A stretch of DNA of 64,000 bases from Nitrospira sp. CG24A. GTDB taxonomy: Bacteria > Nitrospirota > Nitrospiria > Nitrospirales > Nitrospiraceae. A model generated the notes under the pieces. The model saw only the letters and a list, made by a program, of their open reading frames with translations, did no database searches and was not told where the DNA came from. Below are positions 1 to 39,460 of this stretch, piece by piece (the first letter of the stretch is position 1; every line of letters starts with the position of its first letter). A program made the position numbers and the translations under genes. The stretch is taken from positions 908-64,907 of the forward strand of contig NEWT02000032.1 in the NCBI GenBank assembly GCA_002869925.2, given 5' to 3'.

Positions 1-249
1 ACCAGGGTGAAGCGGTATCCGCTCGTGTTGATGCTGGAGCCGTTATTCCGGTGTAATTTGGCCTGTGCCGGTTGCGGAAAGATTCAGTACCCTGACCATG
101 TGCTGGATAAGCGGCTGACTCCGGAGCAATGCTGGGCTGCGGCCGAAGAATGTGGAGCCCCGATCGTCAGTATTCCCGGCGGAGAGCCGATGATCCATCC
201 CGAGATTGCGTCGATTGTTCGCGGGCTGGCTGCGCAGAAACGGTACGCG
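1..249 (+). pseudogene. hpnH: hpnH fragment (hopanoid radical SAM, adenosylhopene-forming), truncated at both ends
   Basis: The frame is open from base 1 and reads as the N-terminal part of HpnH, the B12-binding radical SAM enzyme that couples a 5'-deoxyadenosyl group to hopene. The radical SAM cysteines are visible in [12 protein letters not shown], followed by the family's [13 protein letters not shown] stretch. About 20 residues are missing before base 1, judging from the usual family start. The similarity stops after QKRY near base 246. The HpnH frame then hits a stop at 259-261 while a different protein continues in another frame. A real hpnH is about 330-390 codons long, so three quarters of it is absent. 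Shc and hpnG, its usual neighbours, lie at the other end of the window. Confidence 0.8.
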
Positions 250-1781
250 ATCTGTTCCTGAGCACGGACCAAGCTTTGGCGATCAGCGGCAAGCGGCAGC
301 GCGTACGCATCGTCGCCGACGATGCGAGTTTGGTATTCACGCCCGATGACGGCGCTGCTGTGGCTGTCAAGCCTGGCGACAGTTTCCAGCTGACGGCTGT
401 GCCGACCTGGCTGAATTTCGGAGTCGAGGTCGCCTTGTTGCCGGAGACATTGGATTCCCTTCTGCACGGCACACCATTCTTCCCGCTGCACTGGCGATCG
501 ATGGACCGCAACGGTCGAGCCGGCACACTCCAAGCGCCGGCGTCGAAAGTGGCTCTGCAGGCTGCGCTCAAGGACGATCCCGTGGTCAGCGAGCTCGTCT
601 TTATCGGCTCACAGGCCGCCGCTCTCGACCACACTGGCGATCGCACGATCTTGCAACTCAAGGCACCCCTGATCCATGTGTACGATCGCAACACGCTGGC
701 AGTCTGCGCCAATCTCGCACCGGCCACACACGGCGAAGCGGTCAGCGAGGTCGCCGGTAGTGGCGACGCCGCAGTGGCGAATCAGCGGTTCATGCTCAAG
801 CAATCGCCGCTTACCTATGTCAGCGCCGTCACGCCGAGCGGCCGCCGTTCGACATTGGAAGTGCGCGTCGATGGCCGGCTCTGGAACGAGGTGCCGTCGC
901 TATTCGATCGGAAGCCCAACGCACATGTCTATGCGCTACGCCAGGACGATGAGCAGCGCACCATCGTGCAGTTCGGCGACGGCGTCGAAGCCGCCCGTCT
1001 CCCCAGCGGCCGCGACAATCTGCGCTTCGGCTATCGCAAGTTTCTCGGCACCGGAGGCAACGTGCGTGCCGGCCAATTGACCACCCTGCTCGGGCGTCCG
1101 CTGGGTGTGAAGGCGGTCAACAATCCTGTCCCTGCGAGCGGCGGACAAGACCGCGAATCGCGCGACGACGCACGACGCAATGCGCCGCTCACCATGCTCA
1201 CGCTCGGACGCGCGGTGTCGCTCCAAGATTACACCGATTTTGCGCGCAGCTTCGCAGGCGTCTCTAAAGCGCTCGCCGTCTGGATGCGCACTGGTGGCTT
1301 ACGAGGCCTGTTTCTGAGCCTTGCGGGTCCAGATGGCGCTGCAGTGCCGGAGACCAGCGCGACCTATCTCAATCTTGCCGCCGCGTTGCGCGCCTACGGC
1401 GATCCGCTGCTGCCCTTGCAGCTCAAGACCTATCAGTCTGTACATTTCCGCCTCAAGGCGAAGTTGAAGATTGCCTCGACGGCAGTCGTCGATGAAGTCC
1501 TGGCGAATGTTAGCGATACGTTGCGGTGGCATTTCTCCTTCGCCAATCGCGATTTCGCTCAGCAAGTCAGCCTGGACGAAGTCATGGCGGTGATGCAGAG
1601 TGTGACGGGCGTGGACGCCGTCGATGTCGATCAGTTGTATCGCCTCGACCCCGGCGCGTTCCCCGCTCTAATCCCGCGACTGTTCGCGAAGCCTCCGCAA
1701 CTGTTGACGAACGGCAGTTTGAAAGCCGCGGAATTGCTCACGCTCGATCCCGGCCCGTTGGCGCTGGAGGTGATGCCATGA
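246..1781 (+). CDS. Putative baseplate assembly protein (gpJ-like), 5' end missing
   Basis: The open frame gives about 511 residues that resemble the putative baseplate assembly proteins of contractile tail-like particles (the gpJ/Afp11 group). Those proteins form the wedge of the baseplate in myophage tails and extracellular injection systems. The assignment rests on general sequence character and on the two following tail-type genes. No credible start codon belongs to it. The frame enters directly from the hpnH fragment at about 244-249, so its N-terminus is missing. The stop codon overlaps the next ATG (ATGA), which suggests translational coupling. Its base composition is visibly richer in GC than the rTCA region. 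It may be a degenerate island or one side of a chimeric assembly. Confidence 0.65.
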
Positions 1782-3838
1782 GCTTCGACCAGCAGAAACT
1801 GCTATCGCTGCTCCCCGCGTTTTATCGCATACGCGATGCGGGCGTCGCCGAACAACTCGGTCTGAGCGAAGGCCCGCTTGCCGAATTGTTGGGCGTCATC
1901 GCCGAACAGATCGCGGTCATTGAAGAAGATCTCGAACAGCTGCAGGACGATGCGTTCATCGAAACCTGTGCCGATTGGGTCGTGCCGTACATCGGCGATC
2001 TGATCGGGTATCGCACGCTCTACGGCGTGGCGCCGAAGGTCGCCAATGCGCGCGCCGAAGTCGCGCATACCATCGCCTATCGCCGCCGCAAGGGGACTGC
2101 GCTGGTGCTTGAGCAACTCGCACGCGACGTCACCGGCTGGAATGCGAGTGCCGTCGAATTCTTCCAGCGGCTGATCACCACCCAGTACATGAACCATCGC
2201 CGCACCTGGCTGCACGCCGCGCCGGATCTGCGGCGCTGGGAAGCGCTCAGCCATGTCAGCACCGCCTTCGATACCATCCCACGCACGATCGATGTACGTC
2301 GCATCGCCAGCGGGCGCGGCACGCACAATATTCCGAACATCGGTCTGTTCCTATGGCCGCTGGATGCATATCCGATGACCGGCTCGCCGGCAGCGCGCGT
2401 CGATGATCGGCGCTGGCGTGTCAGTCCGCTCAATCACGATGTGCCGCTGGTGACGCGGCCGCAGACCGAGGATGACATCACCCACCTTGCGACGCCGCTC
2501 AACGCGACTGTCCGCATCGGTCGCCGCGTGATGCACGAGCGCACCAACGATTACTACAGCACCGGTCCGCTGCGGAAAAGCGTGCGACTCTACGTCGGCA
2601 CCATCGATCCGCTTCCTGCGATCGCGCTGTTGGACATCCGTATCTGCAATCTGTCCGACGATGGCGCGACGTGGGCGCATCTGCCGCCTGCCGGAAAGTT
2701 TGCGATCGATCCGGTGCTGGGCCGCATCGCGCTACCACCAGGGTTACCCGCAAACACGCGCGCGCGCGTCGATTATCACTATGCCTTCGGGGCCGACCTC
2801 GGCGGCGGCGAATACGAACGCGCGGGGTCGTTCGCAGAACCGGCGGCGACCGTTCCGCTGCGTGTGCCGCAGGATCACGCCACCATCCAGGCCGCGCTCA
2901 CCGCGCTCGGAGGCCAAGGCGTGGTCGAAATCACCGATAGCGGCCGCTATGAGGAAACTCTCAGCATCGACGTCGCTGCGAGCCAACGCATCGAGCTGCG
3001 CGCCGCCAATGGCCATCGTCCGACGTTGATTCTGAACGGCGAATTCAACTTACGCGGCGGTGACGATTCCGAAATCGCACTCAATGGCCTCCTCATCAGT
3101 GGGCATCGGCTGCGTGTACCGGCGACGGCAAGCAACCTGCTCCGCCGCCTGCATTTGCGGCATTGCACGCTGGTGCCGGGCTGGACACTGGCTGCCGATG
3201 GCACGCCGCAATCGCCGAGCGAACCGGGGCTGCTGGTGGAAATCGCCGATCTGAAGCTTCGCGCCGAGCATTGCATTCTCGGCGGCTTACGCGTGGTCGA
3301 AGGCGCCGAAGCTATCTTGCAGGATTGTATCCTCGACGCCACCGCACTGTCGCGAATCGCGTATGCGGCATTGGACGGCAATAGCCGTGGCGGCAGTTTG
3401 ACTCTGGATGCGTGCACAGCGATCGGCAAGCTGCATGCGCTCAGCTTCCCAATGATCTCGAATTCAATTCTGGTGGCCGAACTCGGCGCCGCCGATCCTT
3501 GGGCCGCGCCCATCATCGCCGCACGCCGCCAACAAGGCTGCGTACGTTTCAGTTATGTTCCGCTGCTCGCGCGAACGCCGCGTCGGTTTCGCTGTGTGCC
3601 GGGCGAGGACACCATGTCCTCGCCGGTGCTGCGCTTCACCTCGCTGCGCTATGGCACAGCGGCATACGCGCAACTTGGCCAAGCGGCGAGTGAAGCGATC
3701 CGGAACGGCGCTGACGATGAAGGTGAGATGGGTGTGTACCACCACGTGCACAAGCCGCAGCGCGAGACGAATCTGCGCCTGCGTCTTGACGAATACCTAC
3801 GGGTCGGCCTCGAGGCCGGCATCTTCTATGAAACCTAA
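1778..3838 (+). CDS. Phage tail protein (gpI-like N-terminus) with repeat-rich C-terminal part
   Basis: This 686-residue protein starts at the ATG that overlaps the preceding stop, since the longer upstream frame is only read-through. The first 170 residues (LLPAFYRIRDAG, then EDLEQLQDDAFIETC and WVVPYIGDLIGY) have the character of the tail-protein domain found beside baseplate gpJ in eCIS and prophage clusters. The rest, from about residue 370, is rich in short beta-strand units such as VEITDSGRYEETLSIDV and looks like a beta-helix or adhesin-like extension. It is probably a baseplate or fibre-associated structural protein. It is transcribed with its neighbours. No sheath, tube or ATPase gene is in the window, so the particle cannot be complete here. 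Confidence 0.65.
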   Translation: MSFDQQKLLSLLPAFYRIRDAGVAEQLGLSEGPLAELLGVIAEQIAVIEEDLEQLQDDAFIETCADWVVPYIGDLIGYRTLYGVAPKVANARAEVAHTIAYRRRKGTALVLEQLARDVTGWNASAVEFFQRLITTQYMNHRRTWLHAAPDLRRWEALSHVSTAFDTIPRTIDVRRIASGRGTHNIPNIGLFLWPLDAYPMTGSPAARVDDRRWRVSPLNHDVPLVTRPQTEDDITHLATPLNATVRIGRRVMHERTNDYYSTGPLRKSVRLYVGTIDPLPAIALLDIRICNLSDDGATWAHLPPAGKFAIDPVLGRIALPPGLPANTRARVDYHYAFGADLGGGEYERAGSFAEPAATVPLRVPQDHATIQAALTALGGQGVVEITDSGRYEETLSIDVAASQRIELRAANGHRPTLILNGEFNLRGGDDSEIALNGLLISGHRLRVPATASNLLRRLHLRHCTLVPGWTLAADGTPQSPSEPGLLVEIADLKLRAEHCILGGLRVVEGAEAILQDCILDATALSRIAYAALDGNSRGGSLTLDACTAIGKLHALSFPMISNSILVAELGAADPWAAPIIAARRQQGCVRFSYVPLLARTPRRFRCVPGEDTMSSPVLRFTSLRYGTAAYAQLGQAASEAIRNGADDEGEMGVYHHVHKPQRETNLRLRLDEYLRVGLEAGIFYET

Positions 3839-3892
3839 CCAAGCCAATCGCGATTCAGCGCATCCTCACATTTTCCGGGAAGGGAGTCTGTC

Positions 3893-6682
3893 ATGAGCGG
3901 AGACTATAGTCGGATCACGTTCGATCCTTGGCTGGATGATCTAGGCGTACTGTTGCAGCAAGGCCGCCCACTCAGCGATGCGGAGTGGAATGCGCTGACA
4001 CTACAACTACGCCGACGCATTCATGTCGGTACGTTGGACACCATCGGCACTGCTGTCGTGCCGATGCAGACACCGGACGGTTTCAAGGTCAGTCTGGTTC
4101 CGGGCAATCTGACGATCGGCATCGGGCGCATCTACGTGGACGGACTGCTCGCCGAAAACCACGGCGGTGGTGCCCGGACGTGGGAGCCGCGCTTGGAAGA
4201 ATCCATCGGCACCGAGCCGGTCCGATATGCACCGCAGGCAGGCTTCACCGCGCAACCGTACTACCCCAATCCTCCCGCGCTGCCAAGCGGCGGGCCGCAT
4301 CTTATCTACCTGGATGTGTGGCAACGCGAAGTCACGCATCTGGTGCGGCCGGAGCTGATTGAAAAAGCGATCGGCGTCGACAGCACGACGCGTCTGCAAA
4401 CGGTGTGGCAAGTCAAACTGCTGGGCAACGTCGGTCCCGATGCCGATTGCTCGACACCATTGGCCAGCATTCCCGGATGGTCGGCGATCAATGCGCCATC
4501 GGCAGGCCGCCTGAGCACCACGACCGCGGTCGTCCCCGGCGAACCCGACCCTTGTCTGATTCCACCAGGCGGCGGGTACAAAGGGCTTGAAAACCAGCTC
4601 TACCGCATCGAGATCCATCAAGGGGGCGCACTCGGCACCGCCACCTTCAAATGGTCGCGCGACAACGCCAGTATTGAAACGCGCGTGACGCATATCCCCA
4701 CTCTTGACCAACTCACCGTGGAAAGCATCGGTAAAGATTCGGTGCTGCGCTTTTCCGATGGCGATTGGGTTGAGATCACCGACGATTGGCTGGAACTGCA
4801 CAATCTGCCTGGTGAACTGCGGCGCGTCAAGGTCGGCAATGGTGTCGACGATGCGACGCGCACGATCCTGCTCGAAGATCCGTTGACCGCAGGCTTGTTC
4901 CCGACAGACGCTCAGCATCGCACGCAGCTGGGACGGCACACGCGGGTCAAACGTTGGGATCAACGCGGTCAGGTGCTGGATCAGAACGGCAACGTCCTGC
5001 AAGACCTCGATCCAATCGCCAGTAATGGCGAAATCACCGTGCCTGCGGGCGCAGGCATCAGCGTCTTGCTCGAACACGGAATCGTGGCGCCGTTTTCGCT
5101 CGATCCAGCCGGCGGTCAATTCAAAAGCGGCGATTACTGGGTGTTCGCCGCGCGCAGCACCGACGCGAGTATCGAGGAACTCGATCACGCGCCGCCGCGC
5201 GGCATCCATCATCACTACGCCAAGCTCGGATTCGTCACCTTCCCAGGCACGATCAGCGGTTGCCTCACCTTCTGGCCACCGCCGATTCCGGAAGGCGGCG
5301 ATAACTGCGCTTGCACAGTCTGCGTGACACCACAAGCACATCCCAGTGGTCAGCTGACGCTCCAAATGGCGATCGATCAAGTTAAGGCAGCCGGGGGCGG
5401 TACGGTCTGTCTGGAAGTCGGCAGCTATTCGCTGCAGACACCCGTGCACATCCAAGGTCCGGGATCGGTCAAGCTCGTCGGCAAGGGAATCGCCTCGCGC
5501 CTGAACGCATTCAGCGCCACTGGCGCCGTCGTGATCGTCAAGAGCGAGGATATTGTGCTGGATGCGTTCTCGATCTTGTGTCGCGGCTCGATCAACTCTC
5601 CTCATGAAGCAGTGCGGGTGGTGGATTCGCGTCTGGTCCGCATCGAGCACTTGGTGATCCACGTTGAAGGCGAAGATCCATTGTGGGCAGCGATTGGTTT
5701 GGCCGAAGGGCTGATGTCGCTGCACGTGAGGGAGAACGTCGTGCAAGCTCCGATCGGAATCCGCAGCGGTAGTAATGCCCCGGGTGCTGGCGATACCAGC
5801 TTGGCCGATGTGCGCATCGAGAACAACGAGTTCGATTGTACCGACACCGCGATCGCTTTCGCACCCGTTACGCGGCACCAGCGCCTTAATCGGATTTGCG
5901 GCAATCGCATCAGCGGTTGTATTCATGGTGGCCTGCTGTTGAACGGTCTGACCGCGCCCGGTTTCGGACTTGAAGTGCAGGCAAACGTCTTTAGTGTCTT
6001 AGGCGACGGCATCGTCGCCAGGCTCAATGGCCTGCGTGTGCTCGATAACGATCTCCTGCAGCCCAAGGAGGCCGTCTCCAAGCAACAGTGCGGCGTCTTG
6101 CTGCTCCCGGCACCGACTGACAATACTCCCATCACCGATTGCCAAATTCTTGGCAACCGCATCCAGGGCTTCAATCGCGCCGGCATCCGTATCAACGCAC
6201 CGTTGCACACCGCGATGATCAAGCAGAACCAGATTTTCCGTGTCGGCATCGGTCTGATGCTCGAATCTGGCCAAGTGATAGACCAGGTTTCGATCGAGAA
6301 TAATCAGTTCAACGACATCGATGGCCTGGCCATCATGGGCAAAGGCGAAAGCGCCAACTACGCCGCCACCGGCAACCAGATCCGCACGCGCGGCACAAGC
6401 AACGACTCTGCGGTGAGCCTGGAGTTCAACTCCGGCGACGGCATCTTTAGCCATAATGAGTGCTATCGCAAAAACAGCAGCGAGAAGCCCGATGTGTTTT
6501 TGAGATCGAGCACACTTGTCGTCAGCAACAATCGCGTCGTCGGGGGGGCTAACTCGGTCAACATGAAGGTCATAAAAGGCCGTTACACCGTGCTTGGCAA
6601 CATTTGCTTCGGAAGTATCCTGGCCGAATCCAACCCCATAGAACTGACCTGGGCATCACTGAATCGCGAACATGTGACCTGA
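3893..6682 (+). CDS. DUF6519-type protein with right-handed beta-helix repeats (tail/baseplate associated)
   Basis: The 929-residue product opens with MSGDYSRITFDP and matches the pattern of DUF6519 proteins, which sit downstream of baseplate genes in tail-like clusters. The first 430 residues or so are the DUF6519-like part. After a Cys-containing linker near residue 470 (CACTVCV) there are many right-handed parallel beta-helix units such as RIENNEFDC, CGNRISGC and ILGNRIQGF, up to about residue 900. Such helices usually form fibres or carbohydrate-binding surfaces. The ATG has an AGGGAG ribosome-binding site and lies 54 bases after the previous stop. The exact role in the particle is not known. 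A 639-codon antisense frame over this gene is a shadow of it. Confidence 0.65.
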   Translation: MSGDYSRITFDPWLDDLGVLLQQGRPLSDAEWNALTLQLRRRIHVGTLDTIGTAVVPMQTPDGFKVSLVPGNLTIGIGRIYVDGLLAENHGGGARTWEPRLEESIGTEPVRYAPQAGFTAQPYYPNPPALPSGGPHLIYLDVWQREVTHLVRPELIEKAIGVDSTTRLQTVWQVKLLGNVGPDADCSTPLASIPGWSAINAPSAGRLSTTTAVVPGEPDPCLIPPGGGYKGLENQLYRIEIHQGGALGTATFKWSRDNASIETRVTHIPTLDQLTVESIGKDSVLRFSDGDWVEITDDWLELHNLPGELRRVKVGNGVDDATRTILLEDPLTAGLFPTDAQHRTQLGRHTRVKRWDQRGQVLDQNGNVLQDLDPIASNGEITVPAGAGISVLLEHGIVAPFSLDPAGGQFKSGDYWVFAARSTDASIEELDHAPPRGIHHHYAKLGFVTFPGTISGCLTFWPPPIPEGGDNCACTVCVTPQAHPSGQLTLQMAIDQVKAAGGGTVCLEVGSYSLQTPVHIQGPGSVKLVGKGIASRLNAFSATGAVVIVKSEDIVLDAFSILCRGSINSPHEAVRVVDSRLVRIEHLVIHVEGEDPLWAAIGLAEGLMSLHVRENVVQAPIGIRSGSNAPGAGDTSLADVRIENNEFDCTDTAIAFAPVTRHQRLNRICGNRISGCIHGGLLLNGLTAPGFGLEVQANVFSVLGDGIVARLNGLRVLDNDLLQPKEAVSKQQCGVLLLPAPTDNTPITDCQILGNRIQGFNRAGIRINAPLHTAMIKQNQIFRVGIGLMLESGQVIDQVSIENNQFNDIDGLAIMGKGESANYAATGNQIRTRGTSNDSAVSLEFNSGDGIFSHNECYRKNSSEKPDVFLRSSTLVVSNNRVVGGANSVNMKVIKGRYTVLGNICFGSILAESNPIELTWASLNREHVT

Positions 6683-28067: not shown

Positions 28068-29270
28068 CTACTGAAGGATTGCCTGCTTCGTTTCATCCAG
28101 GTGCTTTTGGAGGTACTGCATGAAGGGTGTGCCGCCTGTTCCTACCGCCGTAGGGTTGCTGGCATGCGCCTGATATTGGCGGTGAATATAACTATCGGCG
28201 TAACCAATGTGGATCTCACGAAATTTGGCGAGAAGATCGACGCAGGCGCTATAGGCAGCCCAGAGATCGGGGGTGCGGAGTTTTCGATCGCGAACATAGC
28301 CGGCGAGCAACGGACGCCCCAGATTATCGGTGGCTTTCTCGAGGTCCTGGAGGAAGGCACGGTGGCGAGGAGGCATGTAGTCGCGCATCTCTTGTAGATA
28401 GAGGGTCAAGGGGTCAGGGGCATGAGCGACTCCGAGTCCTGCGTCGAGACAAGGCACGATCGTGCTTTGTGCGCCGGTTTCACCTCGGAATTGTTGCGGC
28501 TGTGCAGTATAGGCTTCGACGCCTTCGTAGGAAAGCCCGGTCGGCAAGGCAGGGCTATTCTTCCAGCCGTGGATATACGGTCTCACGCGGTTATAGTAGA
28601 CATAGGGATCGCAGCGCTCTTTCATCCTGAGTAGAGTGGCGCGCATCGCTGTCTGGGCCAACGCCAAGGATTTGAGGCCCAGCAAGACCTCGTCTTCTTT
28701 ATCTGCGGCCGCACCCTTCATTGCGCGTAGGAGTCCCGCCAACCCTGGCCCCGCTTCCCGCTCGATCTGGATGTGGACCACGACAAACCATTCTTCATCC
28801 AAGCCGCCGAGAAAATTTTGAAGCAGTACCATGTTATCGAGCTGAATCGGCTTCGTTGTGTCGAGTCGACGCCAGTTATCGAGCGCATAGGATGCGTAGG
28901 AAAGAACTGGAGGTCGCCCAAGTCGCGTGGCGATTTGGTGCCAGGGTTGTGCCAATTGCGGGGGCAGCGTCGCGGCCGGCTGGTCCGGCACTTCCCATAC
29001 ATAGGCATGCCCGCAGAATGAAAGCATTCTCATCGCAGCCCGGTAATTTTCTGAGGGCCATGTTGGAGGGATGGCGGGAAGCAGTTGACGTTGCTCGTCG
29101 ATGAAGCGTCGAACCGTCCGAGCGCTCAGTAATTTCGGGAGTTCGCGTCCAAGCTCGTTGAGCGCGGGGGAATCAGGTAGATGACCGAGGGGGTCCTGTG
29201 GGAGAAAACCCTGTTCAGGGGAGATCTCGTAATCGGAAAGATCAAGGGAAGCGAAGTTCGTTGATCCCAT
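28068..29270 (-). CDS. Indoleamine 2,3-dioxygenase-like heme protein
   Basis: The 400-residue product resembles IDO-type heme dioxygenases. It has SYASYALDNWRRLD, RPYIHGWKN, the F-RGETGAQSTIVPCLDAGLG segment and the C-terminal GTGGTPFMQYL, which matches the IDO GTGGT motif. The His of FREIHIGYAD (about residue 354) fits the proximal heme ligand. IDO opens the indole ring of tryptophan to N-formylkynurenine. The ATG at 29270 is preferred to an upstream GTG because an AGAGG site precedes it. Divergent to it lies a decayed cyclase-family (kynurenine-formamidase-like) gene, the next step of the same pathway. Kynureninase is not seen here. Confidence 0.85.
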   Translation of the reverse strand: MGSTNFASLDLSDYEISPEQGFLPQDPLGHLPDSPALNELGRELPKLLSARTVRRFIDEQRQLLPAIPPTWPSENYRAAMRMLSFCGHAYVWEVPDQPAATLPPQLAQPWHQIATRLGRPPVLSYASYALDNWRRLDTTKPIQLDNMVLLQNFLGGLDEEWFVVVHIQIEREAGPGLAGLLRAMKGAAADKEDEVLLGLKSLALAQTAMRATLLRMKERCDPYVYYNRVRPYIHGWKNSPALPTGLSYEGVEAYTAQPQQFRGETGAQSTIVPCLDAGLGVAHAPDPLTLYLQEMRDYMPPRHRAFLQDLEKATDNLGRPLLAGYVRDRKLRTPDLWAAYSACVDLLAKFREIHIGYADSYIHRQYQAHASNPTAVGTGGTPFMQYLQKHLDETKQAILQ

Positions 29271-29544
29271 AAGAAACCTCTGATCCACGCGATATCAGCA
29301 TCCATCCCACTCTACCACACCTTGAGTCAATCACAATCAGCGTATGGACTGGAAAATCAGCATGCCTCTGTTTGCAATCTTGCTCAGCGGACTGACAGTA
29401 TTTCCCAGAAGTTTTCGGAACGAATGAGTATGTCATGATGAACGCGACGGCGAAGTGCTCTTGGGTCTATGGTAATAGGAGGAGGCGTTGACTTGTTCTG
29501 CTGACGGGTGGCCCTTCTCAGCGTGATCAGCTTGCCTGGGAACA

Positions 29545-29975: not shown

Positions 29976-30818
29976 ATGGCTCAATCTAAGCACGTGCAAG
30001 TGCTGTCCGCTGCGACCCTTCGCCTTCTGCGTCCATTGGTGAGGATCCTGCTCCGGAACAATATCTCGCATAGAACGTTCGCCGAACTTGCCAAGCTGGT
30101 GTATGCAGAGGTTGCGAACGCTGAGTTCGGAATCGCGGGTAAGAAACAAACAATCTCGAGGATTGCCATTCTCACTGGATTGACGCGCAAGGAAGTGCAA
30201 CGGTTATTGGCGCAACCACCCGGGACCCGATCCATTATGGAGGAAGAGTATCATCGGGCTTCGCGGGTCATCACGGGATGGGTGCGAGACTCTGAATTCG
30301 GAGATGGGAAGGGGCATCCGCATCCACTGCGCATGGAAGGGAAGCGTGCATCATTCAGTGCGTTGGTCAAACGCTACAGTGGAGACATCCCTGTGCGAGC
30401 GATGTTGGATGAGTTGCTGCGAGTCGGAGCCGTTAAACACTTGAAAGATGGACGGACTTGTCTCCTCTCGCGCGGGTATATTCCGCTGAAGGGTCCGGTT
30501 GAGAAATTGCATGTCCTCGGAACAGACACCGCCGACCTCATTGCAACCATCGACCATAACATGTATCAAAAACCATCCAAGCCCCGTTTCCAACGTAAGG
30601 TCATGTACGACAACGTGCCCGTCGAGGTGGCGAAAGAATTTCAGGTCCTCGCCGCCGCGCAGGGCCAGGAATTGTTGGAGGCGATCGACCGTTGGCTTTC
30701 GCATCGAGATCGTGATGTGAATCCCGCCGCGAAGGGGACTGGTCGCGTGCGTGTGGGGCTCGGAATTTATCAGTTTGAGGAACAACTGGATTCAGATCGG
30801 AAAGATTCACGATCATGA
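29976..30818 (+). CDS. DUF6502 family protein
   Basis: The 280-residue protein matches the DUF6502 family. It has a basic N-terminal helix (LSAATLRLLRPLVRILLR), then TFAELAKLVYAEVA and ISRIAILTGLTRKEVQRLL, which has the shape of a helix-turn-helix. A middle region follows (HPLRMEGKRASFSALVKRY), then a C-terminal helical stretch. The HTH suggests a regulator, but no function is established to my knowledge. The last four bases overlap the DUF5666 gene (ATGA), so the two are translationally coupled. Confidence 0.7.
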   Translation: MAQSKHVQVLSAATLRLLRPLVRILLRNNISHRTFAELAKLVYAEVANAEFGIAGKKQTISRIAILTGLTRKEVQRLLAQPPGTRSIMEEEYHRASRVITGWVRDSEFGDGKGHPHPLRMEGKRASFSALVKRYSGDIPVRAMLDELLRVGAVKHLKDGRTCLLSRGYIPLKGPVEKLHVLGTDTADLIATIDHNMYQKPSKPRFQRKVMYDNVPVEVAKEFQVLAAAQGQELLEAIDRWLSHRDRDVNPAAKGTGRVRVGLGIYQFEEQLDSDRKDSRS

Positions 30819-31831
30819 ACCGAACGTCTGGCCAGAATGTTCTTGCCATTCTGGCCCTGTTCTTGGCGCTCGCGTCGTGCGGCCCCAGCCCGCAAGCGGG
30901 CGGGGGTATCGGTGGCACAGGGAACACGGCGACGGTGGTCTCTGCCCCAATCACCGGATTTGGGAGCGTATTTGTCTCTGGAGACGAGTACGAGACTGGC
31001 CATACGTCGATGATGGTCGATAGGAAACCTGGCAGCCAAAGCGATCTCAAGAAAGGGATGATGGTGCGTGTCAACGCCACGTTGACTAAACGCTATGATA
31101 CAAACGAGACACTTGAACGCACGGCGAATACGCTGCTGTACGAAGATACGATTGAGGGGGTTGTGCAATCGGTGGCCTCGGATGGATCCAGGCTGATGGT
31201 CTTAGGTCAGACCGTCACGATCACGCCGACGACCACCCTGGATACCAGTATCCCAGGAAGTAATGTGCTGAGACTCGTGCCCGGTCGAGACCTCGTGGAG
31301 ATCAGCGGGTTCGTCACAGGAGACGGGATGATTACGGCGACATTTGTTGGCTTGAAAACGTTTGACATGAAAACCGAAACGCCTGACTATCAGGTCAAGG
31401 GGCTCATTAAAAACCATAAGGTGACTCAAAAAACCTTCGAGATCGGTGCTCTGACCGTCGACTATCGCGATGCGGTGTTGAACGATATGCCAGGTCAGCT
31501 AAACGAGCTTTGGGACGGTCTGCTGGTTGACGTGGATGGCAAGCAGGTGTCATCAGGTGGGGCAGGCCTATCCGGCGTTCGCATGACCGCAACGCTGGTA
31601 TGGCCGGAAGGATTAGGCTCCGAAGATAGCGAGTACACCAATATTGAAGGATTCGTGACCCAGGTGTTCGGTCCGGGCGAGTTCTCCATCGGCAACGTGC
31701 GTGTATTGACAAATGCCGATACCATGGTTGAAGGCGGAGCCCTGAGCGACATCAAGGTCGGCGCTCACCTAGAGGTGCATGGCCCACTGATTGCCGGTAT
31801 TGTGAATGCGACGAAAGTGGAGTTTGAGTGA
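30815..31831 (+). CDS. DUF5666 domain lipoprotein
   Basis: The 338-residue product has a signal peptide with a lipobox (LALASCG, Cys at about residue 23). A glycine-rich stretch (GGGIGGTG) is followed by ITGFGSVFVSGDEYE, the usual opening of DUF5666 proteins. At least three small beta-barrel (OB-like) repeats follow, seen as KKGMMVRVNATL, VEISGFVTGDGMITA and LEVHGPLIAGIVNATKVE. The repeats may bind ligands in the periplasm or on the outer membrane. It starts inside the stop of the DUF6502 gene. Function unknown. Confidence 0.72.
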   Translation: MNRTSGQNVLAILALFLALASCGPSPQAGGGIGGTGNTATVVSAPITGFGSVFVSGDEYETGHTSMMVDRKPGSQSDLKKGMMVRVNATLTKRYDTNETLERTANTLLYEDTIEGVVQSVASDGSRLMVLGQTVTITPTTTLDTSIPGSNVLRLVPGRDLVEISGFVTGDGMITATFVGLKTFDMKTETPDYQVKGLIKNHKVTQKTFEIGALTVDYRDAVLNDMPGQLNELWDGLLVDVDGKQVSSGGAGLSGVRMTATLVWPEGLGSEDSEYTNIEGFVTQVFGPGEFSIGNVRVLTNADTMVEGGALSDIKVGAHLEVHGPLIAGIVNATKVEFE

Positions 31832-32235: not shown

Positions 32236-33174
32236 TTAGGGCACAGTCTTCCGCTGAGGCGAGGTAGATTGGCGCTTCTTCGTTTTTTCTGCTTCTACCT
32301 CAAGCTCAGCGAGTCGGCGCTGCATCGCGTGCATATCTTCCTTCAAGGCATCGAGTTCTGCAGCTTGGTTCATAACCAGGGCTTTGACAGCGCGCATCTC
32401 TTCGTCCTGTGTCGCCTGCGCCTCCTGAGAGATAATAGCGCCGTTGGCCGATTTCATGGATGAAGGGGTATCCTGAGAAACGGCGGTTGGGGAATCTGAA
32501 TACAGTGGTTGAGACTGTCCTGGCGCCGACGAAGATGTCTTCACCCCGGTGGCCAGCAGGCCATAGTCGATGACGAGTGTGGCCAGGGGAGGTGGATTCA
32601 GCAAGTCAGGCTGTTCATTGAGGCTCGACCGCCTCGTTGTTTCTGGAACAAACCCGATCTGGCGTGGCTCCAACCCTCTCGGATTACGAGCCTGACGATC
32701 CAGTTTCGCGCCAGAATTTCCTCTTCCTATACTCGCACGATAGTGGGTGAGTGCGAGATGCAGCAACCGTCCCTGCACGTAGAGCACCCCGCCGGTGGTC
32801 TCACGCCCCGCATCCGTGCCGCGGAGAATGCGAAATCCGACGAGCTGGCCGTTCATTGCTTTGGACAGAGCGGTACTCATCAGTGGGCTGAGGAATCCAG
32901 TATCCTCATCGGAAAACACCCGCATCGCAGTGGTCGTGTCGTTCGGCAGGACCTGAACCTGTACACCACGAAGCACGTGCGTGAGCACCACGGGACTCAC
33001 GAACACTGGATGGGCCGTCTTGAACCATGAATCCTCCACACTTTGGAGAGACACCGCGCCTCGTGGACCATCAGCAAAAACTGTATCCACAGTCTTGTGA
33101 GAAGTGGCGCATGCACTGACAAGCAGGCACACCGCACTCGCGAGGGCTGCAAGACTGAATCGAGTTCTTTTCAT
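32236..33174 (-). CDS. Putative lipoprotein with C-terminal coiled coil
   Basis: The 312-residue product has a lipoprotein signal (MKRTRFSLAALASAV then CLLVSAC, Cys at about residue 22). I start at the second ATG because the charged KRTR fits a signal n-region. The middle part is poorly conserved in appearance and Pro/Ser-rich around residue 190-230. The last 55 residues (QAAELDALKEDMHAMQRRLA and ELEVEAEKTKKR) form a likely coiled coil. It is not recognised as a known family. The next gene upstream on this strand, the cytochrome-porin, ends 162 bases away. Confidence 0.65.
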   Translation of the reverse strand: MKRTRFSLAALASAVCLLVSACATSHKTVDTVFADGPRGAVSLQSVEDSWFKTAHPVFVSPVVLTHVLRGVQVQVLPNDTTTAMRVFSDEDTGFLSPLMSTALSKAMNGQLVGFRILRGTDAGRETTGGVLYVQGRLLHLALTHYRASIGRGNSGAKLDRQARNPRGLEPRQIGFVPETTRRSSLNEQPDLLNPPPLATLVIDYGLLATGVKTSSSAPGQSQPLYSDSPTAVSQDTPSSMKSANGAIISQEAQATQDEEMRAVKALVMNQAAELDALKEDMHAMQRRLAELEVEAEKTKKRQSTSPQRKTVP

Positions 33175-33335: not shown

Positions 33336-34577
33336 TCAAAATGGGGTCACGAGGTAGATTCGTCCGTTCAAGGAATCCGGCGCAGGGGTGACCCCGATGG
33401 TTCCGCTATCGGTCACGCGCCATTCCGCCTGACAGTAGACGCTGGGGGTAATATTGTACCGCCCCATGACGGTCGTCCGACTGGCTGATTGGGCCAACTC
33501 CTGATCCAGGTGATCAAAGCGGGCCCCCAAGACCCACAGTCTGTTCGGAATGAACAGGACTTCCGCCATATAATTCTGGAGGGCTCGGTTGGTATCGTTG
33601 CCGGGAAACACGCCGACCGTATTCGGGAGCCCATCCGACCGGAAATATCCGACCGTGGTGATAAACGGTCCCAGCTTCACCTCCCCTGCGACCCCCCATT
33701 TGTTCACGCCCTTCTTATCATTTGGCGTGAACGGATCCAGCGTTGAATTGACCACATCGTGTTTGTAGATCAATCCAAGCGTATAGTTTTCAAGAAAGGT
33801 CATGGCGTAGGTCGCATAGAGGCCAGGATCTCCTAATCTGTTTTGGTCATTTAACCCGTGCGGTTGATAGAGCCCAATGGCATATCGATGGGTGATGTCG
33901 CCGGCCTCACTCCCCACAATTTGTCCGTTAAGCTCAGCGGCTGTGTTGTAGAATTCTGTCGCCTCGCTCACGTCACCAATCGTTCCTCTATTGCGAGCGC
34001 CGAGTATCCCAAGGGCTTCTTGGGCAAAATATCGCTGTGTAATCACCCGTTGTGAATGGGACAGAAAGGGCAGGGCGACGTCGAACGTGCCGACCTTGAG
34101 GTTGAGCAAACCATGGCCGACCTCCCCGATGAGATCGTTGATTTGGCCATAGGCCTGACCGAGCGCGACAGACTTTTCCACGAAGGTTGCGATGGCGTAG
34201 CTGGAGAACTTTCCCGTCTTCCCCAGTGGAGTCGCCGCATGGATCTTAAAGTCTTCGATCTTCAGCTTCGAACTCTGGGCACTCCCATCCTCCTTGTTGA
34301 ATTCCCCCGCGAGCGCGAGCCTCGCCGAGAGCGGGGTATGTTTCAGATCCTGGACGTCTTGCCACTCCTTGTCTTCTGGAAACCTGAATCCGTTCGTGCG
34401 AAAATTTTGCCCCACCTGATTGAGTTTGGGGATTGCATTGTGGCAGGTCGAACAGGATTTCTCCGTCTGTCGGCTGAACGCGGGAATCGCTTCCGCTGTC
34501 TTGGGGGTGATGATCGCCAACGCCCCTGAGACGGCAACGCTCAGCAGAATTGCACCCAATAAGACTCGTAGACGCAT
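33336..34577 (-). CDS. Fused monoheme cytochrome c-porin, Cyc2-like
   Basis: The 413-residue product has a signal peptide (residues 1-30, ending TAEA). A single heme motif Cys42-Ser-Thr-Cys45-His46 (KSCSTCHNAIPKLNQ) is followed by a long beta-rich C-terminal part ending in Phe (LVTPF), as outer-membrane barrels do. The opening IPAFSRQTEKSCSTCH, followed by FRTNGFRFP, resembles the N-terminus of Cyc2-type fused cytochrome-porins, which oxidise Fe(II) or accept external electrons at the cell surface. Length also fits. Membership in Cyc2 itself is unproven, because related porins with one CxxCH exist. It lies last in a three-gene minus-strand operon behind a monoheme cytochrome and a NapC/NrfH-type protein. 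Confidence 0.72.
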   Translation of the reverse strand: MRLRVLLGAILLSVAVSGALAIITPKTAEAIPAFSRQTEKSCSTCHNAIPKLNQVGQNFRTNGFRFPEDKEWQDVQDLKHTPLSARLALAGEFNKEDGSAQSSKLKIEDFKIHAATPLGKTGKFSSYAIATFVEKSVALGQAYGQINDLIGEVGHGLLNLKVGTFDVALPFLSHSQRVITQRYFAQEALGILGARNRGTIGDVSEATEFYNTAAELNGQIVGSEAGDITHRYAIGLYQPHGLNDQNRLGDPGLYATYAMTFLENYTLGLIYKHDVVNSTLDPFTPNDKKGVNKWGVAGEVKLGPFITTVGYFRSDGLPNTVGVFPGNDTNRALQNYMAEVLFIPNRLWVLGARFDHLDQELAQSASRTTVMGRYNITPSVYCQAEWRVTDSGTIGVTPAPDSLNGRIYLVTPF

Positions 34578-34604
34578 GACTGATTCCTTTTCTCCCTGAG
34601 GGTG

Positions 34605-35030
34605 TTACGGTGCGAATGATCGAATGTAATGCACCAGTTTCCAGACCTGCTCTTCCGTGAGCTTTTTCTTATATCCTTCCATCTCTGTGGTGTCTGGATC
34701 GCTCCCGTTCAAGGTAATCCAGAACAGTTGCCCATCCGGTATTTTCTCCATCACGCTCTTGTCCGTATAATCTCTCGGTTTCACATCCATCCCCTTGGTG
34801 CCGGAGCCCTTTCCATTCCCGGTGGCGCCATGGCATTTGATGCACTTGTCTTTATAGATAGTCGTGGCCTCTTGCAGCACCTCGGGGGTCAGTAGCACAG
34901 GATTCTTCATTTTCAAGACGTCCTCCGGTGCGGTTGGAGTCTTGCGTTCGGCAGCAAGAATGGATCCCGAATGACCTAGGATCGAGAGGCACAGTACACA
35001 GAGGCCCACACTAGTTAGTTTCATTGTCAT
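34605..35030 (-). CDS. Periplasmic monoheme cytochrome c
   Basis: The 141-residue protein has a signal peptide (MTMKLTSVGL then LSILGHSGS, cut near residue 26) and one heme site Cys63-Ile-Lys-Cys66-His67, with a Met ligand probably in DTTEMEGYKKKL. I place the start at the ATG with an AGGAGAAAGGAAAC site; the longer upstream frame is not used. It overlaps the stop of the NapC-like gene by 20 bases and precedes the cytochrome-porin gene by 27. A soluble electron shuttle between the inner-membrane and outer-membrane proteins is the simplest reading. Confidence 0.85.
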   Translation of the reverse strand: MTMKLTSVGLCVLCLSILGHSGSILAAERKTPTAPEDVLKMKNPVLLTPEVLQEATTIYKDKCIKCHGATGNGKGSGTKGMDVKPRDYTDKSVMEKIPDGQLFWITLNGSDPDTTEMEGYKKKLTEEQVWKLVHYIRSFAP

Positions 35031-35709
35031 GTTTCCTTTCTCCTGCATCCGCAATTCTGGTGCTCTTTCCCTCAGTGTGAGACGGTTCTGTCTTGTCCGG
35101 TGCGGCAGAGGCTTGTTTCTGTTTACCTTCATCCATTTCATCCCAGGGAATTTCGCCATGCACCAGGTTGTAGTGGCACTTGATGCAGGTGGTCCCGGCT
35201 TTCTGGGCACGGTCATGGGACTTGATCGGACGGGTAAAATTCTCATAGGCATGGCAAGTCCGGCACTGAGCACTATCATTCTTCAGGAAATCGGCCCTGA
35301 CCTTTTGTGCTAACTCGGGGCGCCTGGCTTCATAGTCCTCCTTCGTGTTTACCGGGTTCACCACTTCACTGTAGACATCGTGCAAGGCCAGCATCTTGAC
35401 CTGGAGATAGTCGGCGATGGGGTGAGGCACATGGCAGCTCGGACACCCCACTTGCACTCCACTACCATTTTGAAAATGCCGCGATGCCTTCGTCACTTCC
35501 CATAAATGGGTCATGCTGTGACAGGAGATGCAAAACTCGGTGCTATCGGTCGCCTTCATACCCAGCAGCGGCGCGGCCCCCACGAGCATCCCGCCGGCAA
35601 AGACGCCGATCACGCTGAGGGAAATGAATCCGGCGATCGTCCGTCGACGAGTCTTTCCGCGCTCCACCGCTGGTGTGGGTGCGTGCGTGTCGTCTGGGTG
35701 AGATTTCAT
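35011..35709 (-). CDS. NapC/NirT/NrfH-type tetraheme cytochrome c
   Basis: The 232-residue protein has one N-terminal membrane helix (about residues 24-45) and four CxxCH hemes starting at Cys60, Cys89, Cys149 and Cys175. That pattern is the quinol-dehydrogenase NapC/NrfH family, which carries electrons between the quinone pool and periplasmic cytochromes. The C-terminal 50 residues are a charged, low-complexity tail. I use the ATG at 35709 because GGAGG lies upstream; a longer frame extends to 35931. It heads the operon with the monoheme cytochrome and the cytochrome-porin. Confidence 0.83.
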   Translation of the reverse strand: MKSHPDDTHAPTPAVERGKTRRRTIAGFISLSVIGVFAGGMLVGAAPLLGMKATDSTEFCISCHSMTHLWEVTKASRHFQNGSGVQVGCPSCHVPHPIADYLQVKMLALHDVYSEVVNPVNTKEDYEARRPELAQKVRADFLKNDSAQCRTCHAYENFTRPIKSHDRAQKAGTTCIKCHYNLVHGEIPWDEMDEGKQKQASAAPDKTEPSHTEGKSTRIADAGERKHDNETN

Positions 35710-37389: not shown

Positions 37390-37557
37390 AAGATGCTCAA
37401 AATGGCATCCCAGCAAGGCCGCAGTCCAATTACCGTTTATCAAGGGGTGGCTGGGATGATCCCAACTGCGCGCGTCCAACGAGGGTCTTCTGAGACCGCG
37501 CGTTGCGCGAGCAAGGAGATCATCCTAGCTACCTCGCTCCATTATTCAGCATCCTGT
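37390..37557. repeat. Dispersed inverted-repeat element (GCAGGATGC type), diverged copy
   Basis: The left end AAGATGCTCAAAATGGC and the right end ATTCAGCATCCTG match the ends of the copies at 43496, 46996 and 49439. Internal pairing (GCTGGGATGATCCC with the complement near 37520-37535) is present. The right end reaches the stop of the ZorB-like gene. Confidence 0.5.
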
Positions 37558-38234
37558 CAGAGGGGGTAGGTTGATCGTTCGACTCGATGCCGTTGCTCGG
37601 CAGAGCGTAGGCGAATTTTGAAGATCACCCGGCGGCTTTTTTCACGGTTCACGGTGGCAACGGGGGCATAGATCAGGTCTTGTTTGCCGCGTCCGGACGC
37701 TGAGGCGATGTCTTGAAAGCATTGGTATGCTGTCGGCTCTGTGGCTTGAATGATCTCCAACCCCTTCACCATCACTGCGAGCGACCGTTCCTGACTGAGT
37801 TTCAAATTAAACGCATCGCTGCCTTGATCATCGGTGTGTCCCTCGATGGCCAGCGAGTCGATCTTATCACGCAGCGGTCCGCACAATGCCCCGATATAGA
37901 AAGGCAATGCCTCCTCAAGAAAACGATCTGCAGTAGGCGACAGGGTACTTCTTCCGAACTCAAAGGTCAGCCGGTCTTCCGGGACCACGATCGCCAGCGC
38001 GAGCGGGTCTCGGGGATCTGCATCGAGCGAGAGGCCTAATCGTTGAATGTGGTCGCGTAGAGTGCTCTGCACATCCTCTTTGTTTACTTGTAGTTCAGAT
38101 TGTGCTGCGGAGGAGGTTTTGGTGATCTGCGCTGCGAAGAGCAGGATGAATACGATGGCGAGCGAGGTCATGAGATCGGTGATGCCGATGGTCGTGTGCG
38201 AGGCGCCGAAGGTCTGGGGTGTTGCGCGTCTCAT
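37557..38234 (-). CDS. ZorB-like OmpA/MotB peptidoglycan-binding protein
   Basis: The 225-residue protein has a short cytoplasmic N-terminus and one membrane helix (ITDLMTSLAIVFILLFAAQ). Asp20 in the DLMT motif corresponds to the ion-binding Asp of MotB and ZorB. An OmpA-like domain follows, with DSLAIEGHTDDQGSDAFNLK and LSQERSLAVM. The start is the ATG overlapping the stop of the upstream ZorA-like gene (ATGA); a longer frame from 38276 runs inside that gene. With the proton channel it would form a peptidoglycan-anchored rotary motor, as in the Zorya defence system. No ZorC, ZorD or ZorE gene lies beside it, and ordinary MotB or TolR-like roles remain possible. Confidence 0.72.
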   Translation of the reverse strand: MRRATPQTFGASHTTIGITDLMTSLAIVFILLFAAQITKTSSAAQSELQVNKEDVQSTLRDHIQRLGLSLDADPRDPLALAIVVPEDRLTFEFGRSTLSPTADRFLEEALPFYIGALCGPLRDKIDSLAIEGHTDDQGSDAFNLKLSQERSLAVMVKGLEIIQATEPTAYQCFQDIASASGRGKQDLIYAPVATVNREKSRRVIFKIRLRSAEQRHRVERSTYPL

Positions 38235-39460
38235 GCGGTCGGCCGTTGGGTGGACCGTAACGATCGTTTTGGCCAAAAGCGAAACCCTTCAGGGCCTGTG
38301 ATGGAGGACAATAGCCGCTGCTCAGCAAGCTTGCCCGTCAGGCGGCCCATGAGGTTCGTGAGCGCCGTCGTTTCTTGTGCCTGATGGAGGTGCGAATCTT
38401 TCAGAAGCGTGGTGAGTTCATGAATCGAGTCATTAAGCGCCTTCATCGGAGCGGCGAATTCTTCACGGAGAGCTCGGGGTAGTTCAGCCGCTATCTGTCG
38501 TCCTGCTGCTTGCTCGCCTTCCTTCCATTTCGTCAAAGACTGAACAGCTGTGGTCAGTTCAGCAATGGGCCCTGCCAGGCTCTCCGTACCCATACGCCCG
38601 GCATATTCCCTGAGGTCTCCGCCGGAGGCCTGTTGACCTCCCCTGGGCTCGCTTTGGGTCGGCGTGAGCTGCTCCAACATCTGCTCCATGGTTTTTCGGG
38701 GAAAGAGTTTGTCCATGAGGCCAAGAAATGTGTGGTGCGCCTTCATCAGGCGCGAGACCATCGGTTTTTCGATGAGCGTAAACAGATTGGCGGCAATCAG
38801 ACCGACGATGGACGTGAGGAATTTTCCTGCAAGCCCGTTAATGAGTCCCTGAATTCCGGCGATCTCCTGTCCATCGGCATGGAGCTTACTAAGGCCGATG
38901 AATAGAGCGAGGAATGTCAACAGCAACCCGATGCCGGTCACCAGGGACGGGAGTTGGCTGTAGGAGGCCAGGTTGACTCGATGGCTCAGTAGCGCGTCCT
39001 GCGTAAAGATATCTTCCGCTCTGCGTGTACAGAAAATGCGTGGCTCCACGAACCACGGGACATGCTCCAGGATCAGCGTCTTGCGGAATTGCGCCCAGAG
39101 CGGTAGGAACATCGGTTCCTTCTGCATGGCCTTGTCGAGTGTGGTCAGGTCGTCACAGTCGATACGGGTGGAGGAGGCTGTTGGCTGACTAGTCCGAGGC
39201 GTGAACCCTACGAGTGCACGACTTGTGAATCGCTCGTGATCGACATCGCCGCGCTCGCGAGCGAGAGTGGTCAGCATCGGCCATACTCGATCGAACGGCC
39301 GTTGCGCGCGGGATACCTCCCACGTCAACCGTATCACGTGCCAAAGAAAGAAGAGCACGATTCCAAAAGAGCCGAGCCAGCTCAGCATCGGGCTTTGGGG
39401 CCCTCCAAAAAATGCCGCATCACGACTTAAGAATTCCCACAGACTGGACATGCCGGTCAT
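38231..39460 (-). CDS. ZorA-like MotA/TolQ/ExbB proton channel protein
   Basis: The 409-residue protein has an N-terminal membrane helix (residues 25-45), a soluble loop, then two to three membrane helices in VNLASYSQLPSLVTGIGLLL and FLTSIVGLIAANLFTLIE. A cytoplasmic helical tail of about 170 residues follows (LAGPIAELTTAVQSLTKW and onward). This is the MotA/TolQ/ExbB plan with a long tail as in ZorA, though the tail is much shorter than in typical ZorA proteins. It overlaps the ZorB-like gene. The pair stands alone, 3.7 kb from the cytochrome operon. Confidence in the MotA-like fold is high and in a defence role low. Confidence 0.72.
   Translation of the reverse strand: MTGMSSLWEFLSRDAAFFGGPQSPMLSWLGSFGIVLFFLWHVIRLTWEVSRAQRPFDRVWPMLTTLARERGDVDHERFTSRALVGFTPRTSQPTASSTRIDCDDLTTLDKAMQKEPMFLPLWAQFRKTLILEHVPWFVEPRIFCTRRAEDIFTQDALLSHRVNLASYSQLPSLVTGIGLLLTFLALFIGLSKLHADGQEIAGIQGLINGLAGKFLTSIVGLIAANLFTLIEKPMVSRLMKAHHTFLGLMDKLFPRKTMEQMLEQLTPTQSEPRGGQQASGGDLREYAGRMGTESLAGPIAELTTAVQSLTKWKEGEQAAGRQIAAELPRALREEFAAPMKALNDSIHELTTLLKDSHLHQAQETTALTNLMGRLTGKLAEQRLLSSITGPEGFRFWPKRSLRSTQRPTA

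Follow-up and report, generated by a model that had tools for sequence, protein, structure and literature searches.

A divergent Cyc2-like cytochrome-porin unit in a probable comammox Nitrospira, with a NapC-type gene at one locus

In the genome of Nitrospira sp. CG24A, genes for a NapC/NrfH-type protein, a monoheme cytochrome c and a cytochrome-porin follow one another, and their arrangement raises the question of whether the three make up one pathway linking the quinone pool with the cell surface, as had been proposed in the initial annotation of this locus, and which way electrons would run along it. We examined the locus within a window, by which we mean the whole 64,000-nt stretch analysed here from contig NEWT02000032.1; coordinates count within this window unless they carry a prefix.

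Gene layout and host

The three genes occupy 33336-35709, where all are intact and lie on the minus strand, as first described. The leading gene (35011..35709) encodes a 232-aa, predicted membrane-anchored quinol dehydrogenase of the tetraheme NapC/NrfH type, which matches PF03264 at 158 bits (cut-off 24) and carries four CxxCH motifs, at residues 60, 89, 149 and 175. A hydrophobic N-terminal stretch, read from the sequence at about residues 27-49, is its predicted membrane anchor. When this protein is aligned with NrfH (2j7a), Met66, Lys105 and Asp111 fall opposite Met49, Lys82 and Asp89, which we take to be the quinol-site residues of NrfH; because these residues are kept, it is plausible that the quinol site works. 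The same genome has a second NapC-type tetraheme gene (L118:5062-5661), 33% identical to that of the window; its surroundings are different and include a triheme protein.

The second gene (34605..35027, minus strand) encodes an exported monoheme class I cytochrome c of 140 aa, a probable periplasmic electron carrier, which matches PF00034 at 45 bits (cut-off 21) and is also above cut-off for PF13442. It has one CxxCH motif and a Met in the sequence EMEGY. An overlap between the first two genes had been claimed and is real: they share 17 nt, and a putative ribosome site, GGAGAAAGG, stands directly before the cytochrome c ATG, inside the tail of the NapC gene. Translation of the two genes is probably coupled. 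The C-terminal tail of NapC, which runs over the ribosome site, lies outside the match to the NapC profile. The porin gene begins 27 nt after the cytochrome c gene, and promoter and terminator scans returned matches barely above chance.

Beyond these coordinates lies the third gene of what proves to be the conserved unit (cytochrome c, porin, lipoprotein). This gene (32236..33174, minus strand) encodes a conserved lipoprotein with a Lipobox-like LVSAC; its orthologues, 46-71% identical, follow the porin in related loci. No Pfam family scored above cut-off for it, its structural model is of low confidence (pLDDT 60) and a fold search with that model gave no match. Two further genes on the plus strand adjoin the unit in many loci, the window included. 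One encodes a DUF5666 protein with a lipoprotein-like N-terminus (30815..31831; PF18914, 77 bits), and the other a DUF6502 protein and possible regulator (29976..30818; PF20112, 473 bits), whose orthologues beside the porin unit are 75-82% identical.

Elsewhere in the window, an overlapping pair of minus-strand genes (37557-39460) resembles the motor-type anti-phage genes ZorA and ZorB, with PADLOC E-values of 1.2e-38 for ZorB and 6.7e-22 for ZorA, both under the NCBIfam cut-offs. A protein of the indoleamine 2,3-dioxygenase family (28068-29288, minus strand; PF01231, 295 bits) is unexpected in a nitrifier. The large genes at 1-6682 resemble a phage-tail or contractile-injection cluster, and GC content is 0.61-0.63 in the first 6 kb as against about 0.55 elsewhere.

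AmoA was found in the genome (310 bits). A search with the NarG model did not show NxrA, and the NarH model gave a weak match to a 429-aa protein which we read by eye as Nitrospira NxrB, beside an NxrA fragment. As amoA and nxrB are both present, the host is probably a comammox Nitrospira and thus more than the nitrite oxidiser of its earlier description.

The cytochrome-porin and its clade

The porin, P0003 (33336..34577, minus strand, 413 aa), consists of a leader, a heme domain at about residues 30-70, a barrel at 83-412 and a C-terminal Phe. Its N-terminus reads AIPAFSRQTEKSCSTCHNAIPKL, in which the heme site CSTCH (42-46) stands behind a MRLRVLLG...TAEA leader, judged by eye. The single N-terminal heme (Cys42-Cys45-His46) and the last residue, Phe413, are as noted in the initial annotation. 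Its likening of the porin to Cyc2 is supported by four features: a heme motif with one substitution, length, the modelled barrel and a profile relation to another family of cytochrome-porins, f22. The published Cyc2 signature is AXPXFAR[Q/K][T/Y] and CXXCH, then PXL four residues on (PMC8406198). P0003 reads AIPAFSRQT, with one fixed position changed (Ser for Ala); its PKL at 50-52 takes the position of the Cyc2 PXL, and its 413 aa exceed the Cyc2 length criterion of 365 aa. Searched by itself, P0003 matched neither a Pfam nor an NCBIfam family nor, to any meaningful degree, the sequence of a PDB entry; only its relatives touched Porin_4.

An AF2 model of P0003, built from 29 sequences and containing no heme, has a pLDDT of 76 and a pTM of 0.76. 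It shows short helices and the heme site in the N-terminal region, and a barrel is predicted with 16 strands over residues 83-412. Among 995 re-aligned solved chains, the best matches to this model are OprP (2o4v, Z 25.2) and OprO (4rjw, Z 25.1), the two proteins named by Keffer et al. as structural homologues of Cyc2. As other 16-strand porins score just 2-3 Z units lower (Z 22-23.5), the match speaks strongly for a 16-strand porin of some kind but is no more than suggestive of Cyc2 itself.

Compared as profiles, the P0003 clade and the f22 cytochrome-porins align over 359 columns (probability 96%, E 3e-9), most clearly in the N-terminal heme domain. The f22 proteins start with AYPGFARKYNFPCSFCHIQWPKL or near variants, and some of them, for example L107, share the Ser for Ala of FAR. 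The probable Leptospirillaceae were located via cytochrome 579: f22 was taken as this family because no other family in the phylum has a protein that passes the NCBIfam cut-off for cytochrome 579. Their motif and size, together with the organism, lead us to infer that the f22 porins are cytochrome 572, which in Leptospirillum has been described as located in the outer membrane and easily reduced by Fe(II) (PMC8126622). In one f22 genome (G078), a monoheme cytochrome c gene follows one of two f22-type porins, the same pairing as in the window. The window cytochrome c matches the cytochrome 579 model NF033864 weakly, its 54 bits not reaching the cut-off of 280.

In a tree of 53 proteins, the P0003 clade (11 sequences) has 100/100 support and a long branch (1.2 changes per column). 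It is separate from the other Nitrospira Cyc2-like porins and also far from the f22 branch. The nearest group, with lower support (94/89), comprises other Nitrospirota cytochrome-porins of 386-422 aa, although the deep branches of this tree should not be over-read, as they meet at long lengths. Keffer et al. regard function as most uncertain for the divergent cluster 3 Cyc2 homologues. The combination named in the initial annotation as refuting its view, a place outside the Cyc2 clade along with a lack of outer-membrane location, did not arise in this analysis, which related the porin to Cyc2-type proteins by the profile match to f22.

Of 396 Nitrospirota genomes sampled from the whole phylum, 10 hold the clade, and one further relative (G007) has a broken copy; in total, about 11 of some 450 genomes searched have it. 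These 11 belong to one family and two genera, and three of them have two loci each. Scans for the named Cyc2 references found nothing but three Nitrospira loci among genome contigs and one short Methylocystis match among plasmids. The porin is 55-66% identical in other genomes, a cytochrome c gene is conserved beside it in the clade, and the order cytochrome c, cytochrome-porin, lipoprotein is kept in the great majority of loci. By the simple Nei-Gojobori method, with many pairs near saturation, dN/dS is 0.04-0.22 for the porin and 0.10-0.27 for cytochrome c, which indicates purifying selection on both.

The second porin copy of the window's own genome, on contig 30, is 66% identical to P0003. 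This second locus is preceded by another porin, a PstS-like protein, a histidine kinase and a response regulator (L026:4292-9454), an arrangement kept in several species. RSF1 has a clade porin that lacks the heme domain and has no cytochrome c gene ahead of it (L024:5926-7008, the same gene as L083:8763-9845). In several species there are also small genes, located downstream of the porin at a distance of 2-3 kb, whose products of some 120-140 aa carry just the Cyc2-type heme domain, with intact CSTCH and PKLN, and have unrelated tails (L026:13118-13534, L079:12284-12655, L080:12702-13067 and L082:6500-6865). We considered whether these are all decayed copies and rejected this, as the heme motif is intact in most species; they are possibly free-standing cytochromes. 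Selection on them looks weak (dN/dS mostly 0.24-0.48), and the RBC069 copy is frameshifted.

NapC follows a different pattern. It is absent from every clade locus except that of the window, so its adjacency to the unit is known from one MAG contig. Its best relatives in the phylum are 37-38% identical, with none above 38% among the 396 Nitrospirota genomes, and the composition of the gene is like that of its neighbours (GC 0.552, GC3 0.635). As NapC was seen beside the unit in the window alone, whereas cytochrome c, porin and lipoprotein are the conserved set, the view of the three genes as one evolved quinone-to-surface pathway is not supported.

Proposed function and direction of electron flow

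Our preferred reading, to which we give an even chance, is that porin, cytochrome c and lipoprotein form a Cyc2-type outer-membrane electron relay, with NapC as a local side entry. The analysis establishes the genes, their heme sites, a modelled fold, the relation to a family and the pattern of conservation; the location, partners, substrate and direction of the relay we infer as follows. A soluble reduced donor, most likely Fe(II) or Mn(II), would reduce the porin heme from outside or in the mouth of the barrel, the single c-type heme sitting at the periplasmic side of the 16-strand porin. Electrons would then pass to the co-transcribed periplasmic monoheme cytochrome c, on to a high-potential cytochrome c pool and so to a terminal oxidase, and the lipoprotein would probably serve in assembly or anchoring. 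The host may be able to exchange electrons with the exterior of the cell.

Within this relay, NapC would be a quinol side entry to the periplasmic carrier, not an entry for electrons from iron; it most likely oxidises methyl-plastoquinol and passes the electrons to the cytochrome c of its operon. No means is known by which NapC-type enzymes would drive the reverse reaction with the proton motive force. The two Nitrospira species examined have only methyl-plastoquinones, with E0' of about +57 mV (PMC12324825), and Cyc2 of PV-1 lies at +208 mV (PMC8406198). Because the published quinone potential is the lower of the two, NapC should run from quinol to cytochrome c to porin. Iron oxidation joined to the quinone pool via NapC, as first suggested, would on these potentials be uphill by about 150 mV (PMC12324825, PMC8406198). 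ImoA of Sideroxydans pairs with a low-potential monoheme carrier, not a high-potential one.

In a rival reading the operon is an outward conduit: electrons drawn from quinol by NapC would pass via cytochrome c and the porin heme to an external acceptor, such as a metal species, partner cells or an electrode. This could serve, for instance, to discharge a quinone pool that has become over-reduced at low oxygen. The probable translational coupling of the overlapping genes, the conserved quinol-site residues, the downhill outward step from a quinone at +57 mV to a Cyc2-type heme at about +200 mV and the resemblance of tetraheme, monoheme and outer-membrane cytochromes to the ImoA-PmcA-MtoA chain argue for such a conduit. 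Nevertheless it seems doubtful: NapC is missing in all other genomes that bear the core, so the core did not evolve for NapC; a monoheme porin is thought to be suited to dissolved species, not solids (PMC8406198); and the acceptor would have to lie at about +200 mV or higher. NapC, cytochrome c and porin would then constitute a minimal three-protein, six-heme electron-exporting wire from the quinone pool to the surface in a complete nitrifier, a route not described before, and this we hold to be distinctly doubtful. The restriction of NapC to this genome would fit a gene that landed upstream of a Cyc2-type unit by accident, uses its transcription and serves other periplasmic acceptors, as would the C-terminal tail that lies over the cytochrome c ribosome site and outside the profile match; but the neighbour-like composition of the gene, its intact four hemes and quinol-site residues and its overlapping reading frame speak against this, and we consider an accidental neighbour quite improbable.

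A further reading turns on the porin, whose heme domain could gate the barrel as a plug or a sensor and have no respiratory role, with the DUF6502 and DUF5666 genes and the linked two-component system as a response branch. It would account for the genes that lead the contig 30 locus (two-component pair, further porin and PstS-like protein), for the heme-domain-only genes kept nearby in several genomes and for the loss of the heme domain from one RSF1 copy. However, because a soluble cytochrome c is co-transcribed with the porin and keeps its heme and Met ligand, electron transfer is the simpler explanation, and the kinship of the porin to cytochrome 572-type porins also tells against a sensing role, which we regard as improbable.

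Significance and comparison with known systems

Cyc2 serves as the chief marker of iron oxidation at neutral pH, and any role of its many homologues in nitrifiers is putative. The clade described here offers a compact unit of three conserved genes that is open to testing in comammox Nitrospira; engineered water systems are the source of some of the known genomes of these bacteria. If the preferred relay works, complete nitrifiers would be able to draw on metals as a second source of energy or to dispose of electrons, and the one NapC-bearing genome would amount to a natural experiment on the wiring of the relay to the quinone pool. The suggestion that the system was perhaps not yet described has to be narrowed, as Cyc2 homologues in Nitrospirales have been published and discussed for iron and manganese (PMC9040806, PMC12070406); what is new is the divergent clade, its lipoprotein and the addition of NapC. 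In the open-access literature, of which our coverage is incomplete, we found no description of the clade with its lipoprotein or of a NapC-cytochrome c-Cyc2-type operon.

With Cyc2 of Mariprofundus PV-1 and Acidithiobacillus (PMC8406198), P0003 shares a single N-terminal c heme motif, a length above 365 aa, an OprP/OprO-like 16-strand barrel and an export leader; it differs in reading FSR for FAR, in belonging to a separate deep clade and in its lipoprotein and monoheme cytochrome c partners. Other Nitrospira Cyc2-like porins (AIPAFARKY type, 405-530 aa) have the same domain order and heme motif and come from the same bacterial family, whereas the window clade is distinct from them (100/100) and brings its own cytochrome c and lipoprotein. 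The likeness to cytochromes 572 and 579 of Leptospirillum consists of a profile match across most of the porin and of the weak match between the cytochrome c and the cytochrome 579 model, but the window belongs to a neutral-pH nitrifier, its porin has 413 aa as against about 550, and its cytochrome c falls far under the cytochrome 579 cut-off. The Mto pathway of Sideroxydans (ImoA, PmcA/MtoD, MtoAB; PMC13390432) likewise combines a NapC/CymA-type tetraheme protein, a monoheme periplasmic cytochrome and an outer-membrane cytochrome; in the window, however, a single heme is fused to its own barrel, in place of a decaheme MtoA held in the porin MtoB, and the outer-membrane parts of the two systems are not homologous.
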